Shown here in pieces: positions 11,540 through 45,990 of a DNA stretch of 64,000 bases. How positions within the stretch are numbered: the first letter of the stretch is position 1; each line of letters starts with the position of its first letter. The notes below the pieces were generated by a model. The model had not been told where the DNA came from. It saw only the letters and a program-made list of their open reading frames with translations, and made no database searches. Made by a program: the position numbers and the translations under genes. This DNA comes from Saururus chinensis (taxonomy: Eukaryota > Streptophyta > Magnoliopsida > Piperales > Saururaceae): positions 23,376,563 to 23,440,562 of the forward strand of contig CP141145.1 in the NCBI GenBank assembly GCA_035235625.1, in the 5' to 3' direction.

Positions 11540-12007
11540 TCAGCCGGCGATTTCAATGGCTTTGACGTCGGCCTTCTTATTCTCCTCCATCTTCTTCGGC
11601 ACTGTCACGGTGAGCACCCCGTTCTCCATGGCCGCCCTGACCTCGTCTACCTTGACGTTCTCCGGCAACTGGAACCGCCTCAGGAATGTGCCGCTGCTCC
11701 TCTCCACCCTGTGCCATCTATCGTTCTTCTCCTCCTTCTCGCGGCTTCTCTCTCCGCTGATCTGGAGGATCTTCCCCTCCTCGATCTCCACCTTCACCTC
11801 TTCCTTCTTCAGCCCCGGCAGGTCGGCCTTGAATACGTGGGCCTCCGGTGTCTCCTTCCAGTCGAGCCTCATGTTGGCGAACGAAGAGGTTTCACTTGAA
11901 AGGGAAGAGTTCTGAGCGAGGGACTGAAATGGATCCCAGACATTCAGGGAAAGGGGGTGGTCGAAGACACTGGGGCGGTGGCCGAAGAAGCTCTGGATAA
12001 GAGACAT
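11540..12007 (-). CDS. Class I cytosolic small heat-shock protein, 155 aa
   Basis: ATP-independent chaperone that forms oligomers and holds unfolding proteins in the cytosol during heat stress. The intronless frame starts [18 protein letters not shown], the typical class I start (MSLIPS-FG.R..-FDP). The alpha-crystallin domain spans about residues 45-140, with [18 protein letters not shown], the [16 protein letters not shown] strand and the GVLTVTVPK signature. The C-terminal IEI of AIEIAG is the I-x-I motif that docks into neighbouring dimers. Length is normal for 17-18 kDa members. Upstream lie a TATAAAAA box (12152-12159) and several heat-shock elements. The second copy at 16572-17039 differs at only a handful of residues. 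No odd changes are seen, so it is probably functional and heat-inducible. Confidence 0.95.
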
Positions 12008-16571: not shown

Positions 16572-17039
16572 ATGTCTCTTATCCAGAGCTTCTTAGGCCG
16601 CCGCCCCGGTGTCTTCGACCACCCCTTTTCCCTGGATGTCTGGGATCCATTTCAGTCCCTCGCTCAGAACTCTTCCCTTTCAAGTGAAACCTCTTCGTTC
16701 GCCAACATGAGGCTCGACTGGAAGGAGACCCCGGAGGCTCATGTCTTCAAGGCTGACTTGCCGGGGCTGAAGAAGGAAGAGGTGAAGGTGGAGATCGAGG
16801 AGGGGAAGATCCTCCAGATCAGCGGAGAGAGAAGACGCGAGAAGGAGGAGAAGAACGATAGATGGCACAGGGTGGAGAGGAGCAGCGGCACATTCCTGAG
16901 GCGGTTCCAGTTGCCGGAAAGCGCCAAGGTAGACGAGGTCAGGGCTGCCATGGAGAACGGGGTGCTCACCGTGACAGTGCCCAAGAAGATGGAGGAGAAT
17001 AAGAAGGCCGACGTCAAAGCCATTGAAATCGCCGACTGA
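16572..17039 (+). CDS. Class I cytosolic small heat-shock protein, 155 aa (second copy)
   Basis: Near-identical paralogue of the gene at 11540-12007, on the opposite strand. It starts [19 protein letters not shown]. It has the same alpha-crystallin domain (about residues 45-140), the signature GVLTVTVPK and the C-terminal I-x-I motif in AIEIAD. Visible differences include FFGHRPS to FLGRRPG, SLNVW to SLDVW, SREK to RREK, PENVK to PESAK, and the last residue G to D. Intronless, normal length, no disabling change. The promoter has perfect heat-shock elements and a TATA box. The function is the same: cytosolic holdase induced by heat. Both copies being intact in an inverted pair suggests a fairly recent duplication or gene conversion between arms. 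Confidence 0.95.
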
Positions 17040-25499: not shown

Positions 25500-26317
<818 letters not shown>

Positions 26318-26984: not shown

Positions 26985-29900
26985 ATGGATTCCGACCTCT
27001 GGACCTCCCGCCTGGCCGCCGCCAAGCGGCAATACTCGCTTCAGCACCATCAGCTCTCCCATTCAGGTTCGATTCCTCTTTCTTTTTTTTTTCCTGTTTG
27101 TTGTATGGTTTTCTTACTGTTTTTTATCCGGGTGGCTGATGGGAGCTGTAAAGACTGGTTTTTTGTGGGTTTTGACTTGCTGGGTCGGTGTGTTTTGGAT
27201 GTTTTAGATCGGTTGAGCATGGATGATTTCGAGGTGGAAGAGGAGGTCCGCCCGGATTTCCCCTGCCCGTACTGCTACGAGGATTTTGACATCGGGTCCC
27301 TCTGCTCCCACCTGGAGGATGAGCATCCTTTTGAATCTAAAGTCACGGTCAGTGTTTTGAAAATTCGATCTTTTTCGTTTTGTTCGTTGACAGATCTGTT
27401 GCATTATCTGGTCGCTGTTGATAAATGAATTTTATGTCTGGATGTCTATTTTCCTGCTGTTTTAGTCGGTAAAAATTGTTTCTTTTTCTGTGGGCAACAT
27501 GTTTTGTCCGGGGATCTTATGTTCGTGGAATTACATTTAATTTAGAGAGAATATAGAAGTTGCATATTTTTTTAACTAAAGACGATTTTCCTGTAATTGC
27601 CACGGATTGATTGCTGTTCATGCTATGGTGGAAAATTATGTAGCAGGTTAGGAGACTAATAAAAGACTTGATGGTGGTTGTGTAGGGATGTGTTGAATGA
27701 ATGCTTTCTAAATTTTTACAATAATGTCTGGTGGATACGCTTACCCTTAATTTTGCTTGTAGCAAATGGCATGAATGTATGACGTTTTCTTATCTTTGAC
27801 ATAGTTTGGGGTATATATATTGGAATCTGCAATTTTTGGATAGGCACTTCTAATTATCTTTGACATAGCAAATGGCATGAAGGGTAGGGGTTAGCATCAT
27901 TTCTGCATACTGCCGTTCTGCTTGATATTTGGAGAGTAATGGTCGGTTCTGATATGACAAGTTATAGCTGAAGAAGAGAAAAAAATGTTTTGACGAATAA
28001 GACCTACTACTGAACCTAGTATGGGATGACACTTTTCTGCTTTATAAGCTTGTGTGCCTCATATGAAAATCTGTTTGAACATCTCGGTTCTCTTATGAAG
28101 TGGTTAATGAAGAGAAATGTTTGTTAATGATGCTGCAGTCGGTTTTCTTATTTGGGAGGGTTGCATAAATTTCATTTTATATTTTTTGATCCTGGTTGCT
28201 GCTTATTGTGTTTTATTGTATGATCATGCTGTTTGTTACCATCATTATGTTTATGATGTGTTCCAAATGCAATTTGTCATTAGGATGTTTAAAAGAGATT
28301 CAAGTTGTTGAATTACCCTTTCATTCGGATTGTCAGATCTAAAGTTAATTATAGGGAATCTGAGCAATGCGCCGATAAACATGCTAATTCAATCGGAGAC
28401 TGTAACAGTGGCTTGAAGAATTCTGGAAACATGGTTAAACAAATGAGGAAAATATGGGGTGCGAAAGAACTTTGATGTAGAGTTTAAAACTCGAGAAATT
28501 CTACAAGGGAAGATGTAACAATGATTGACAGACTAAAATGTGTTATAGTACATATACTTTGAATAATGTGTTTCATTGATTAAGGTGTATCTATGCTATT
28601 TCTATGACATTTTCTAGACATACGAAAGCACTTGGTGTTTCTTTATTTTCTTCTGTTCATTTTCTTGAAGAGTGGTTTGGACGAGCACTTGGTGTTTCTT
28701 ATTTTCTTCTGTTCATTTTCTTGAAGAGTGGTTTGGACGAATTGTGTGCAATAGGGGGATATTGAAACCGTGCTTATAAATTGTCAGGTTGTTGTGAAGT
28801 AGTGAAATAGATATTTTTTGATAATGGTTGAAGGTAGAGATATGTATTCATAAAAAGGTCTAACTCTTACTTGTTATCTTCAGCTTGTAAAGAGAAAGAG
28901 GTCTTTTAATGGATTGTTAATGGCTAATTTTAAATGATCAAAACCCATATATTTTTTACCCTAATGAGTAGATCTGATCTTATGAGTCGCATGTGAGTAA
29001 AGTTTTGTTGAAGCCTTGTTCATGAAGTGAAAATTTGAACGAAAAGTGTTAGACTTGGGCCTGATAAAACATGTAGATGTTTTTTCTTCGTGAACCCCAT
29101 CAAGCTATCACGTTAGAGCTGAAGAGTGTGGTATATAAAATGCGACTAAATAATGGTCTGTTAGCAAACAGTTTGCAAGGGAAATTATGTTGTATACTAC
29201 AGGTTACTGTGCAGGCTTCTCATGTATATGTCTGATTTTGCAGGTTTGCCCCATTTGTTCTGTTAAGGTATCAAGGGACATGCTGAATCATATTACACTG
29301 CAACATGGACATCTATTCAAAATATCCTTTAATCATGTTTTTCTGGGTTATAAATGCAAAAGGTCTTATTGTTTCTTGAGTTGACTTTTCTTTTTGTCAT
29401 TACCCCCTTATTCTCCCTCTGTCCGTAAATTAGTGTCTGCATTAGTAAGTCAAAATGAACGATTCATTGTGGTTTTCTAATGCAGACACGTATTGGACGG
29501 AGGGTGTATGTTTTAATAGTACATATCACTTTACCTTTCCATACCAGCTTGGCAAAGCACATGTGACATGTCCTTTATAGAGAGATTTTTATAATATCGC
29601 GTCTTTTCTTCGGGGATGTGTTATTTCACTTCTAGTCTGCACTACATAGTAGTGATTTGCTCTGTTGGATACTAGTAAAACCAACATTTCTCGAAATTTA
29701 ACCATATTTTTCTTTAACCAAAGGGTACCTGCAGAGACGTCGAAGATTGCGCAGGGTTGCTATTCCAAACAGTCAGGCTTTGTCTTTGTTGGGTAGAGAC
29801 CTCCGTGAGGCCCACCTGCAAGTTCTTTTAGGTGGTGGTGGCTTTAGATCAAGCAACTCCACTTCCTCAAATGGGGTCACGGATCTCCTTTCTTCTCTAG

Positions 29901-30404
29901 TATTAAATTTTCCTGGCTCTGAAGCTGAAGAAATTTCAAAAGTTGCTGCTGCTTCTACTGCTGAGGAGACCTCCTCAAAGAAAGTGACTTCCACAAAGAT
30001 GTGGAGAAAAAGGTAGTAGTTTTAACTTCAACTGAATAAGGGGAAATGTGCTACTAGTTCTTCTGAATCTACCGGTTTCAGGGGACTTAATTTAATCTCC
30101 TTAAAAATTTTAGAAAGTCGTTTTATTAATTAATCGTGATAGTATGTTTGCCAGGATTGACAAGGCTACGGAGAGCATGATTGTCTTGATTTATGTAGTT
30201 TTTATTTTTAGAGTGAATACTCGTTGAGTCAAGATGTTCTGTGCTGTTGGTGCAGTTGATCCTACTGGCTTATATTTTCCTCTTTTTTTCTGCAGTATCG
30301 ATTCTTCTTTGAGTTCTGAAGAGAGAGAGCAGAAGATGAAGCAGGCAACAGGTAGAGCCAAATTTGTTCAGGACCTGCTGCTTGCCACCCTATTTAGCGA
30401 TTAG
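26985..30404 (+). CDS. Di19 (dehydration-induced 19) zinc-finger protein, 230 aa, five exons
   Basis: Nuclear zinc-finger regulator of drought and ABA responses. Exons: 26985-27066, 27208-27347, 29244-29321, 29729-30012, 30296-30404 (693 nt). The protein starts MDSDLWTSRLAAAKRQY, the usual Di19 start. Two C2H2-like fingers follow: CPYCYEDFDIGSLCSHLEDEH (about residues 46-66) and CPICSVKV..MLNHITLQH (about 76-95). Next comes a basic LQRRRRLRR, a likely nuclear signal and phosphorylation context. The Di19 C-terminal domain contains SLLGRDLREAHLQVLLGG and ends AKFVQDLLLATLFSD. Length is normal. Introns 1, 2 and 4 are GT-AG. Intron 3 (29322-29728) is AT-AC; using it restores the conserved join HGHLFK/LQRRRRLRR in frame. 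Intron 2 is 1.9 kb and holds a 57-bp tandem duplication. Confidence 0.92.
28628..28740. repeat. 57-bp tandem duplication in Di19 intron 2
   Basis: gcacttggtgtttctt through gagtggtttggacga occurs twice head to tail, at 28628-28684 and 28685-28740, differing by one T. Near identity means it is recent. Confidence 0.9.
29322..29728 (+). other. U12-type AT-AC intron (Di19 intron 3)
   Basis: The 5' end is ATATCCTTT, a full match to the minor-spliceosome donor. The branch-site-like TTCTTTAAC (29710-29718) differs from TTCCTTAAC at one place, with its adenosines 11-12 nt before the terminal AC (29727-29728). The flanking exons join HLFK to LQRRRRLRR in frame. No GT donor near 29321 gives that conserved join. 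Confidence 0.88.
29411..29506. mobile_element. Stowaway MITE inside the U12 intron
   Basis: Ends ttctccctctgtccgtaaatt and (read inward) caccctccgtccaatacgt, followed by the shared gtgtctgcattag. TA flanks both sides (29409-29410, 29507-29508). 96 bp, non-coding. Confidence 0.8.
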
Positions 30405-41219: not shown

Positions 41220-44200
41220 TGGGGAAGATGACTAAAGAGGATTGTTTTCCTTAACATGGACATACAAAGATGTACAATTTATAGACACAAGAGATGAATC
41301 TAGAGAGTGAGAGAGACAAAGGGTCGTCTACGAAGAAGAACAGACGTTTAGAGAAGATGAACAGTCTTCTTGAGAAGGTATGTCTTTAATATGCCCCTCC
41401 AAACTCATGGTGGGTAAAGAGCCATTAGTTTGGAAGTGAGAGTTTGAAATTGTTGTATGGGGAGCGGCTTGGTGAAGATATCAGCAAGTTGATCTTTAGA
41501 TGGAATATGATGAACTTGCTTGTTGCCAGCTAAAACTTGCTCCTGGATGTAGTGATGATCAATTTCTATATATTTGGTGCAGGCATGAAAAATTGGGTTG
41601 ACTGTGAGAGCAATGGTTGACTGGTTGTTGCACCACAAAGTAGGAGTCGCAGGAGGAGAGATGTCAAGAAACCTAAAAATCATGGATACCCAAACTATCT
41701 CGATAATAGTGGAAGAGGGCTCGATATTTGGCTTTGGTAGAGGAGCAGGCAACTGTTTCTTACTTCTTGGATTTACAGATGATAGGATTGGGATCCAAGA
41801 AGAGACAGTACCAAGTGATGGACCGACAATCAAGTGGGTCACCAGCCTAGTCGAAATCAAAGTAGGCAGTGAGAGTGAAGGGAACCGGTCTAATAAGGAT
41901 TCCGTGAGAGAGAGTGCCATGGAGATACCGGAAGATCCGTTTAACATCTACATAATGAATTATGGAGGGCTAGTGCATGTGTTGGCAACATAGTTTACAG
42001 AATAGGCAATATCCAGACGAGTATAAGTGAGGTATTGCAGGGCTCCAACAATGCTCTTATAGTGGGAGGGATCTGAGAAAAGGGGATCAGTGGGAGAGGT
42101 AGTAGGTCATTTGTAGCCAATAGGAGTAGGAGTGGATTTGCAATCGTCCATGTTAGCCTGGAGGAGAATATCCCAAGTATACTGAGCCTGTGAGAGAAAG
42201 AGACCATATGGAGTATAAGTGAATTCTATGCCAAGAAAATGATGAAGAAGACCCAAGTCATTGACATCAAAGACTCGACCAAGGAGGGTAATGATATGAT
42301 CGATGAAAGTGTGGTGAGTACGAGTAATGAGGATGTTGTCAACATAAACAACAAGAACAGTAACCTGAGAGTGGGTGTGATGGAGGAAGAGAGAGGTGTC
42401 AACATGACAAACGTAAAACCCCATGTTGAGAAGATAGGATGAGAGTCAGGCATACCACTGGTCGGGGGCTTGTTAGAGACCGTATAGGGCTTTGTGAAGC
42501 CGACACACATGATGGGGGCGAGTGGAGTAAATAAATCTAGGAGGTTGAACCATGTACCGTTCTTCCTTAATGGTGATATGAAGAAAGACATTAGAGATGT
42601 CCAGTAACCTGAGAGTGGGTGTGATAGAGGAAGAGAGAGGTGTCAACATGACAAACGTAAAACCCCATGTTGAGAAGATAGGATGAGAGTCAGGCATACC
42701 ATTGGTCGGGGGCTTGTTAGAGACCGTATAGGGCTTTGTGAAGCCGACACACATGATGGGGGCGAGTGGAGTAAATAAATCTAGGAGGTTGAACCATGTA
42801 CCGTTCTTCCTTAATGGTGATATGAAGAAAGACATTAGAGATGTCCAGCTGTTTCACGATCCAGGCTTTGGAAACAGCAAGACTTAGTATAATCTGAATG
42901 GTGTAAAGTTTCACCATGGGACTAAAGGTTTCATGATAGTCTTGTCTTTCTTCCTGAGTGAAACCTTTTGCAACAAGGCGGGCCTTATACTGAGAGATGG
43001 AGCCATCGGGACCCTACTTGATTTTATAGGCCCACCGACACCCAATGATGTTAGAGTTGAGTGGTGGAGGAACAAGAGTCCAAGTACCTTGCTTGAGAAG
43101 AGCCTCATACTCTTCACGCATAGCAACACACCACTCAGGAACTTGGGAGGCAATACGGAAGGAAGTGGGGTTCAGTTTGAGGGGAGGTTTGGGCAATGAG
43201 AGAGAATGGGTTGCGATGGAGAAAAGTACCAACTTTGCTACAGATAATCATCGGATGCAAGGGACTAGAGAGAGGTGGTGGGGTGGGCGGAAGTGATGAT
43301 GTTGGGGACAAGTGAGGGGTGGAAGGAGCAGTTGGGTTTAGAGGGGGATGAAGAGGGTGTAGGAAGCAAGGTGGAGGGAGGGTCGAGTGAGATGGTGGTG
43401 GTAGGGGAGGAGGTAGGGGGGAAGAGGTAGAGGGGGGATAAGGTGAAGAGGAGATGGGGTAGTAAGAGAGTGATGGAGAAAGAGAAATTCATTTTTGACA
43501 AAGTGGACATGGCGAGAGATGTAGATGCAATGGGTAGTGGGGTCAAGACACCAGTAACCTTTATTAGTTGGGCAATAGTCAATGAAGATATAAGGAATAG
43601 AACGAGGTTCAAGTTTATGGTGAGAGTAAGGACGGGTCCATGGGTAGCACCGACAGCCAAAAGTACGAAGGTGAGTGCAATTAGGAGGGGTGAGATGAAG
43701 TAGTTGATAGGGGGAGGCGTTGTTTAAGGTGGGAGTTGGGAGATGATTGATGAGATATGTAGCTGTGAAGAGGAGGGAGGCATGTGAGCAGCAGTAAGAA
43801 GGGTGATGGTGGTCTCAATGATGTGACGATGTTTATGTTCAGTAACACTATTTTGTTCGGGGGTGTGAGGACAGGAAAACTAATCGGTGATGCCATGGGA
43901 GGTGAAGTGATGAGTGAAGCGAGAGTTGACGTACTCACGACCGTTGTCAGAATGGAAGAAGGTGATATGATGAGGGAGAGCATTTTCAACCATGGACTGA
44001 AAGGAAAGAAAAGCTTCAAGGACATCCGATTTGAATTTGAGAGGGTAGATCCAAGTGTAGTGAGAGTAATCATCTATAAATATGACGTAGTATTGGTAAC
44101 CTAGGAAGGAGAGAATGGGTGAGGGGCCCCAGACATCAGAGTGAATAAGTTCTAGTGGGCAAGTAGATGATCGTTGTGAAAGATGAAATTGTAATTTGTA

Positions 44201-45990
44201 AGATTTACTAACATGACAACTATTACAATCAAAGTTTTTGAGCTTAGTGACATGAAAGGGAAAAGTCAATACAATGGAATTAAAAGTTACTGGGAAGGAT
44301 GACCAAGTCGATGATGCCATATGTCAGAGGAGGAAGTAGTGGGATAGAGAGCATACGAAGGAGTGGAGGAGAGAGGATAGACGCCATTCCGACAGGGGCT
44401 GCAGTATAGGATGCGCTTGAACTTATTGTCCTAAATAGACACATCAGAAGCAGTAAATATTAGTGAACAATCATTATCGTGGGCAAGTTTATGGACAAAG
44501 GGAAGATTGTGAGCAATAGTAGGTGTATGAAGAATAGTGTTAAGGAGAAGTGTGGTGGTGGGAAGAGGGAGAGTGGTGCTACCTGTAGAGGAGATAGGGA
44601 GAGAGTGATTATTACCAATGTTGACATGGTAGGGCCAGGGTGGAATGACGAGGTGGTGATGTGGTTCAAGTCTGGAGTGATATGATCACTAGCGTTGGAG
44701 TCGAGTAGCCAATCAGAGGAGTGGGGCCCACCTCCCTTGGGCACTCATGGCAAGGCCAGAACCCATGGTAGGGCCCCGGTGGGAGGCATTGAATCGCTCT
44801 TTATAGTTGATAGCAGAGTGGAGTCCTCCACATATTTGACATGAGAGACGGTAATGGCGAGAGCCCCCGCGGCCATGGTATTGGCAGCGGTCCTTACTGC
44901 CCCCACGATGCTGCGGTGGATATGGAGAAGTGGATAGACAACCAGGGGGTGGGGAGAAGGCCGAAGGAGGCATAGGCGGTAGCAGGAGGTGGCCCGGAGT
45001 GTTCGGGGGAGGGAACAATGGTAGCAATGGCTGGGAGAGAACCAAGAAGAAGTTGACCTAGGGTGGCACCAAGCGTGTTAAAGATAGTTGAAGGGATGAT
45101 AGGATCAGTTGAGGTAGTAGCAGAAGTCATGGTGCTGGCGGTGGCATGGAGGGCAGTGGGATGTGACAAGGGGGGACCGGTGGGGGCCAATTGTTGGAGA
45201 GAGAGAGTGGTCTCCTCTGCAAGAAGAAGGTTCCAAAGTTTGGCGACAGGCACGAGAGCACCCTGGGCAAGAATATCAGCAACAAATGTAGCATAATCAG
45301 ATGGGAGGCTAGCAAGATTATGGTGAAGAAGATCAACATCAGTGATGTGAACATTGACCACATCTAATTGATCCACGATGAGGTGAAGCTGATTGAGGTA
45401 GGTGGCCATGCAACCTGAACTGAGGCTACAACGGCGAAGGTCACCCATGAGTTGAATAACGACAACAAGAGAAGCAGAGAGATAGCAAGCCTCAATAGCA
45501 TACCATAGAGTAGCAATGGTGGTATAGTTAAGAAAATGTCAAACAAGGGTGGGTTCGATGGTGGCACAAAGGAAGATGAAGAGATGATGGTTAGTCATGA
45601 TCTAGTCAGAGTAGGAGGGTCGAGTGGAGGTGTCTGTCGGGGAGGGACAGTGGAGTGTACCATCAACAAATGGGAGGAGATGATAAGCCTCCAAGACAGA
45701 TCGGGTGGTTGTATGCCAAACAAGAAAATTGGTTCCATCAAGACGAACAGTTATGAGAGTAGTCATATTTGTAACCAAAAATTTAATGGAAGCCGGGACA
45801 TTGGTGCAAAAATCTAGGACAGTGGAGGACATAGGGGAAGCTAGAGTGCTACCCAAAGTAGCGGGGACAGATGGAGAAGTGGGAGGGTTCATGGAGGTGA
45901 AAGGGAGAGAGCTTGTATGGAAGGAAATGACGTGATTAAGAATAGGAGAAGAGAAAAACAAAATTAAAAACATTCACAGAGAGACAACTC
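41220..45990 (-). mobile_element. Ty1/copia retrotransposon, decayed fossil
   Basis: On the minus strand the parts follow the copia order. A gag-like region lies near 45.9-44.9 kb with a zinc-knuckle remnant. A protease remnant (WLLDS-A--H) lies near 44.7 kb. An integrase core near 44.3-43.9 kb shows HSDVWGP, FIDDYSHYTW and HSDNGREY. Reverse transcriptase (43.2-42.1 kb) shows WTLVP, GCRWAYKIK and VYVDN. RNase H ends near 41.4 kb with ADIFTKPLP. A polypurine-like tttggagggg near 41395-41405 is followed by a short LTR-like stretch with a TATA-like ctataaat down to about 41220. I find no matching 5' LTR, so that side looks lost. It is clearly broken, with roughly ten or more breaks across frames, and reads as an old copy. 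Confidence 0.85.

Follow-up and report, generated by a model that had tools for sequence, protein, structure and literature searches.

A very probable U12-type AT-AC intron in a Di19 zinc-finger gene of Saururus chinensis

U12-type introns and the Di19 family

Among U12-type introns there is an AT-AC subtype whose consensus consists of the 5' splice site ATATCCTT, the branch site TCCTTAAC and an AC acceptor (PMC2831892). The subtype makes up 26% of the U12 introns in Arabidopsis, 23% in soybean, 22% in rice and 13% in maize (PMC7367187, Table 2), and thus an earlier sequence-only reading of the DNA considered here, which called such introns a small minority even within the U12 class, overstated their rarity. 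AT-AC ends alone do not settle the U12 class, because AT-AC introns lacking U12 signals also exist, and one from a plant has been ascribed to the U2 spliceosome (PMC6283158).

U12 introns are already known in the Di19 family. Arabidopsis Di19-2 was chosen from U12DB as a gene with such an intron and was tested by RT-PCR (PMC4892727; also PMC3422263 and PMC5853960), and its U12 intron is mis-spliced in u11-48k plants (PMC4892727). Di19 is also named in the discussion of PMC3422263 among the U12-intron genes that need U11/U12-31K, and the same report describes a rice gene that restored U12 intron splicing. Accounts of how Di19-2 is spliced in minor-spliceosome mutants are not in full agreement. 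The sequence-only reading had left open whether an intron of this kind is catalogued for the family. A U12 intron is indeed on record for Di19-2, and neither the AT-AC subtype nor a position within Di19 is stated in the published accounts found. The intron described below is a sound identification and an ordinary finding.

The gene model and the signals of intron 3

The window, by which we mean the whole 64,000-nucleotide stretch of S. chinensis DNA that was analysed, carries a gene with five exons and four introns. This is the usual structure of the family, in which 31 of 36 Di19 genes from seven species have four introns (PMC8954995). The features of the gene are as follows.

26985-30404, + strand: the Di19 gene, coding parts of five exons, and four introns (gene model)
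26985..27066, + strand: exon 1, coding part from the ATG, 82 nt (gene model)
27208..27347, + strand: exon 2, 140 nt (gene model; zf-Di19 match of the spliced product)
29244..29321, + strand: exon 3, 78 nt, ending ...HLFK (gene model, paralogue comparison)
29322..29728, + strand: intron 3, AT-AC, 407 nt, phase 0 (motifs, frame, paralogue L008)
29322..29330, + strand: U12-type 5' splice site ATATCCTTT (motif search; same in L008)
29710..29718, + strand: U12-type branch-site-like TTCTTTAAC, candidate branch A at 29716 or 29717 (motif search)
29727..29728, + strand: terminal AC of intron 3 (sequence)
29729..30012, + strand: exon 4, 284 nt, starting LQRRRRLRR (gene model)
29735..29755, + strand: basic stretch RRRRLRR just past the intron 3 junction (sequence from the gene model)
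30296..30404, + strand: exon 5 with the stop codon TAG (gene model; the Di19_C match spans exons 4 and 5)

Removal of intron 3 in this model leaves an open frame of 230 amino acids. A Pfam search of the spliced product finds zf-Di19 at amino acids 44-96 (85.5 bits, cut-off 27.5) and Di19_C at amino acids 118-227 (99.2 bits, cut-off 29). Both domains of the family are therefore present, and the assignment to the drought-response Di19 genes that had been made from the letters alone is upheld. The basic stretch may function as a nuclear localisation signal. A long run of (AT)n lies at about 26216-26314, some 670 bases upstream of the start codon.

Introns 1, 2 and 4 have GT-AG ends. The boundaries of intron 3 read AAA/ATATCCTTT...TTCTTTAACCAAAGGGTAC/CTG, so that the exon end is followed directly by the ATATCCTT(T) donor of the AT-AC subtype. 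An exact match to RTATCCTTT occurs once in the window, counting both strands, and this occurrence is the one at the end of exon 3. The branch site is close to TTCCTTRAY and carries one mismatch against TTCCTTAAC, a C to T change that possibly forms a G-U pair. The last base of the intron lies 11 or 12 nt past the candidate branch adenosines at 29717 and 29716, respectively. Thus, donor, branch-site motif and terminal AC are all found where the sequence-only reading had placed them, and at the spacing it gave. Excision of 29322-29728 joins HLFK to LQRRRRLRR between amino acids 100 and 101. The junction is in phase 0, which is under-represented among U12 introns (PMC7367187). Folding of the RNA around the 5' splice site (29300-29345) gives a structure no better than those of shuffled sequences (z -0.18), and there are no Rfam families at gathering score in the window.

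Matches to minor spliceosomal snRNAs are present in the genome for all three families searched at E<=0.001. There is one match to U12 (91.9 bits, model positions 1-151 of 151), and it holds GAGTAAGGAAAA, a sequence that could base-pair with the branch site. There are nine matches to U6atac (best 94 bits) and three to U11 (best 73.6 bits). Two of the U6atac matches have equal scores of 94 bits and lie 7.8 kb apart on one strand (C5:13289872-13289998 and C5:13297660-13297786).

These observations, together with the paralogue L008 described below, favour the following explanation. By what is established for U12 introns, U11, then U6atac, would recognise ATATCCTTT, U12 would pair with TTCTTTAAC a short distance before the 3' end of the intron, and the minor spliceosome would then join HLFK to LQRRRRLRR. 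Routine removal would yield the full-length protein with its zinc fingers and Di19_C domain, and the intron would be an inherited one that this genome has in two or more of its Di19 genes. Intron 3 is very probably removed by the minor spliceosome. We have high confidence in the reading as a whole, which includes the U12-type AT-AC class, inheritance of the intron in two or more Di19 genes and its normal removal in this way.

Chance expectation, paralogues and alternative junctions

When donors with at most one mismatch, branch sites with at most one mismatch and acceptors are combined without an anchor, there are 18 such triples on the + strand of the window and 16 on the - strand, whereas 60 order-1 Markov sequences have 33.7 per strand on average. 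If the donor must be exact, two triples remain in all, and the mean of the Markov sequences is 2.0 per strand. The unanchored search over the window thus yields triples no commoner than chance, and this result is not significant; therefore, the weight rests on the coding-frame anchor and on the relatives of the gene. At a given point, the probability of an exact ATATCCTTT is 5.5e-6, and that of a branch site with at most one mismatch whose A lies 9-13 nt before the point is 0.0029. The significance of the intron 3 signals lies in that anchor and in their recurrence at the equivalent codon boundary of a diverged paralogue.

A profile search of the 516-Mb genome (11 contigs) yielded six matches to zf-Di19 (13 candidates scored) and five to Di19_C (six scored). 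Both sets fall in the same three genes, namely the window gene, L008 (C1, about 2.195 Mb) and L009 (C6, about 40.01 Mb); these are the genes found by profile search, and more are possible. Exon 3 is 78 nt long in all three. Intron 3 of L008 is 343 nt long, reads TTTAAG/ATATCCTTTCTA...TCCCTTAACCTTGAAATAC/ATGCATCGT and lies in phase 0 after F-K, and its removal joins FFK to MHRRRRLKK. The first nine bases of its donor are identical to those of the window intron. It also has TCCCTTAAC and a terminal AC, and the branch site in each of the two introns is one base off TTCCTTAAC. In both introns the last base of the AC lies 11 nt past the second branch-site A. The bodies of the 407-nt and 343-nt introns are not alignable, the longest blastn pieces being 12 nt at 92% (E 0.70) and 23 nt at 74% (E 2.4).

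The third gene has a different intron at the same place, with the boundaries ATAAAG/GTATGATCTTTC...CATCTGTTCAG/AGGAAG.

L009:4159-4243: GT-AG intron, 85 nt, GTATGATC, with G at +5, GTATGA...CAG (own genome, C6, about 40.01 Mb)

This intron is U2-looking and has no U12 donor. Thus, the U12 signals at the homologous position are kept in one of the two paralogues found, and a change of intron type at this position, in one direction or the other, is likely to separate L009 from the other two genes. Among metazoan U12 introns, those of the AT-AC subtype convert to the U2 type less often than expected, and a switch to GT-AG is the presumed intermediate step (PMC2831892). The sequence-only reading had called for intron positions to be compared in orthologues. 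The comparison was run in the paralogues, with the outcome just given. A scan of prokaryote genomes gave 117 pattern matches, none of them a Di19 orthologue of another species, and conservation of the intron between species rests on the literature. In the Arabidopsis Di19 proteins F-K is followed directly by a basic stretch, which agrees with the AT-AC join; we do not count this as evidence.

The choice of junction needs to be weighed against other in-frame possibilities, of which 198 were enumerated from the dinucleotide pairs tried, 35 of them GT-AG. The sequence-only reading had held that only the AT-AC excision gives the conserved join. This stands for the exact HLFK/LQRRRRLRR sequence and fails for a looser one, since HLFK and RRRRLRR both survive in five of the 35 GT-AG combinations, whose products are 3 to 21 residues longer overall. 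Pfam was tried as a judge of the junction and rejected. Four alternative products score 98.9-99.2 bits for Di19_C and 85.4-85.5 bits for zf-Di19, and the search cannot tell the splice choices apart because its matches leave amino acids 97-117 uncovered and the junction lies at 100/101. The GT-AG alternative with the shortest gain, which is also the best of those with nearby boundaries, would be a U2-type intron at 29337-29734 (CAT/GTTTTT ... CCTGCAG/AG). It is in frame, gives 233 amino acids and uses a good-looking acceptor, CTGCAG. However, its donor, CAT/GTTTTT, looks poor when judged by eye, and its product reads HLFK-ISFNH-RRRRLRR, with ISFNH in place of LQ. In addition, L008 offers 10 in-frame GT/GC-AG options (donors from -30 to +60, acceptors from -30 to +40), all of which lose FFK, RRRRLKK or both, and the conserved U12 signals would be left without explanation. 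We therefore regard a GT-AG intron here as very improbable.

Another possibility is that the intron is U12-type and ends at an AG, at 29322-29734, giving HLFK/RRRRLRR. This AT-AG form is also in frame (228 amino acids), and U12 introns with other termini do exist (PMC7367187, Table 2, column 'Other'). However, the AG lies 17-18 nt from the candidate branch adenosines, compared with 11-12 nt for the AC. In L008 the 11-nt distance to the AC is in keeping with this, and AT rather than AG stands 6 nt farther on. We regard this form as extremely improbable. Intron 3 also has both the donor and the branch site, unlike the U2-type AT-AC introns of PMC6283158. The minor-spliceosome AT-AC class proposed from the letters alone is thus supported by the motifs, the frame, L008 and the snRNA matches in the genome.

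Intron retention, the hairpin and comparison with known systems

If the AT-AC intron 3 were retained, translation would meet an early stop.

29382..29384, + strand: in-frame stop met on retention of intron 3, giving a 120-aa product (translation of the retained form)

The 120-aa product would include the zinc fingers but lack both the basic stretch and the Di19_C domain, and the stop lies 630 nt before the last exon junction. As for many introns, retention may lead to nonsense-mediated decay or to a truncated protein. The sequence-only reading had gone further and suggested, as an inference of its own, that splicing could be a control point under stress, a step that the analysis does not support. 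In such a scheme, intron 3 would be a regulated switch in which slow minor splicing, or retention, leads to a zinc-finger-only protein of 120 amino acids or to nonsense-mediated decay. The retention stop in the window gene is matched by an early in-frame stop on retention in L008, u11-48k plants have a defect in the splicing of Di19-2 (PMC4892727), and At-Di19-5 is among the genes affected by alternative splicing coupled to nonsense-mediated decay, with the intron unspecified (PMC3591102). However, a stop codon is a common consequence of intron retention and therefore not a specific feature. Stress control would add to routine removal by the minor spliceosome and does not exclude it, and we consider it unlikely.

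Intron 3 also contains a second conspicuous feature.

29413..29504, strand not assigned: 92-bp inverted-repeat hairpin with Stowaway-like ends, inside intron 3 (repeat search, fold)

The ends of the hairpin read CTCCCTCTGTCC and GGACGGAGGG, and the RNA fold of 29408-29510 has an energy of -47.6 kcal/mol (z -9.24, 200 shuffles). Terminal inverted repeats like CTCCCTCCGTCC together with the hairpin are features of Stowaway MITEs, which this element resembles. Its flanks are TTATT and TGTATG, with TA two bases out from the ends, and the duplication is not clean. A search of the same genome with a 97-base query gave five matches, a lower bound, of which two come from the element itself, one per strand, and three are dispersed relatives that align with 79 to 92 bases of the query at 74-76% identity. 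An extended form of the control scheme would make the AT-AC intron a regulatory gate of the Di19 family, in which slow splicing gives a zinc-finger-only protein or decay, the Stowaway-like hairpin tunes the process and the third gene escaped by conversion to the U2 type; we think this quite unlikely.

Other features of the window include two nearly identical HSP20 small heat-shock proteins of 155 amino acids, encoded about 4.6 kb apart in opposite orientation (11540-12007 on the - strand and 16572-17039 on the + strand), and retrotransposon-like ORF pieces at 41405-45448 (- strand), within which 43880-44320 matches an integrase core (rve).

A minor-spliceosome intron is thus supported in two diverged Di19 genes from the same genome, in each case where the zinc fingers give way to the basic-Di19_C part. 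An annotation pipeline that allows only GT-AG introns would misplace the intron 3 junction. The three Di19 genes also offer a natural comparison, both for the AT-AC to GT-AG change and for whether minor splicing limits a stress regulator.

Compared with the AT-AC subtype of U12-type introns (PMC2831892), intron 3, which is known here from its sequence, has the exact donor, a branch site one base off and an AC at 11-12 nt; it differs by the Stowaway-like hairpin. Stowaway MITEs insert at TA and are amplified with primers beginning tactccctccgtccc (PMC3660474). The window element likewise has such ends and forms a hairpin over nearly its whole length, and it differs in having no clean TA duplication, with at least three dispersed relatives in its own genome. 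A further close counterpart is the U12 intron of Arabidopsis Di19-2, for which the accounts found give neither termini nor position. Like intron 3, it is a U12-class intron in a Di19 gene, it is mis-spliced in at least the u11-48k mutant, and the two are likely to be the same intron.
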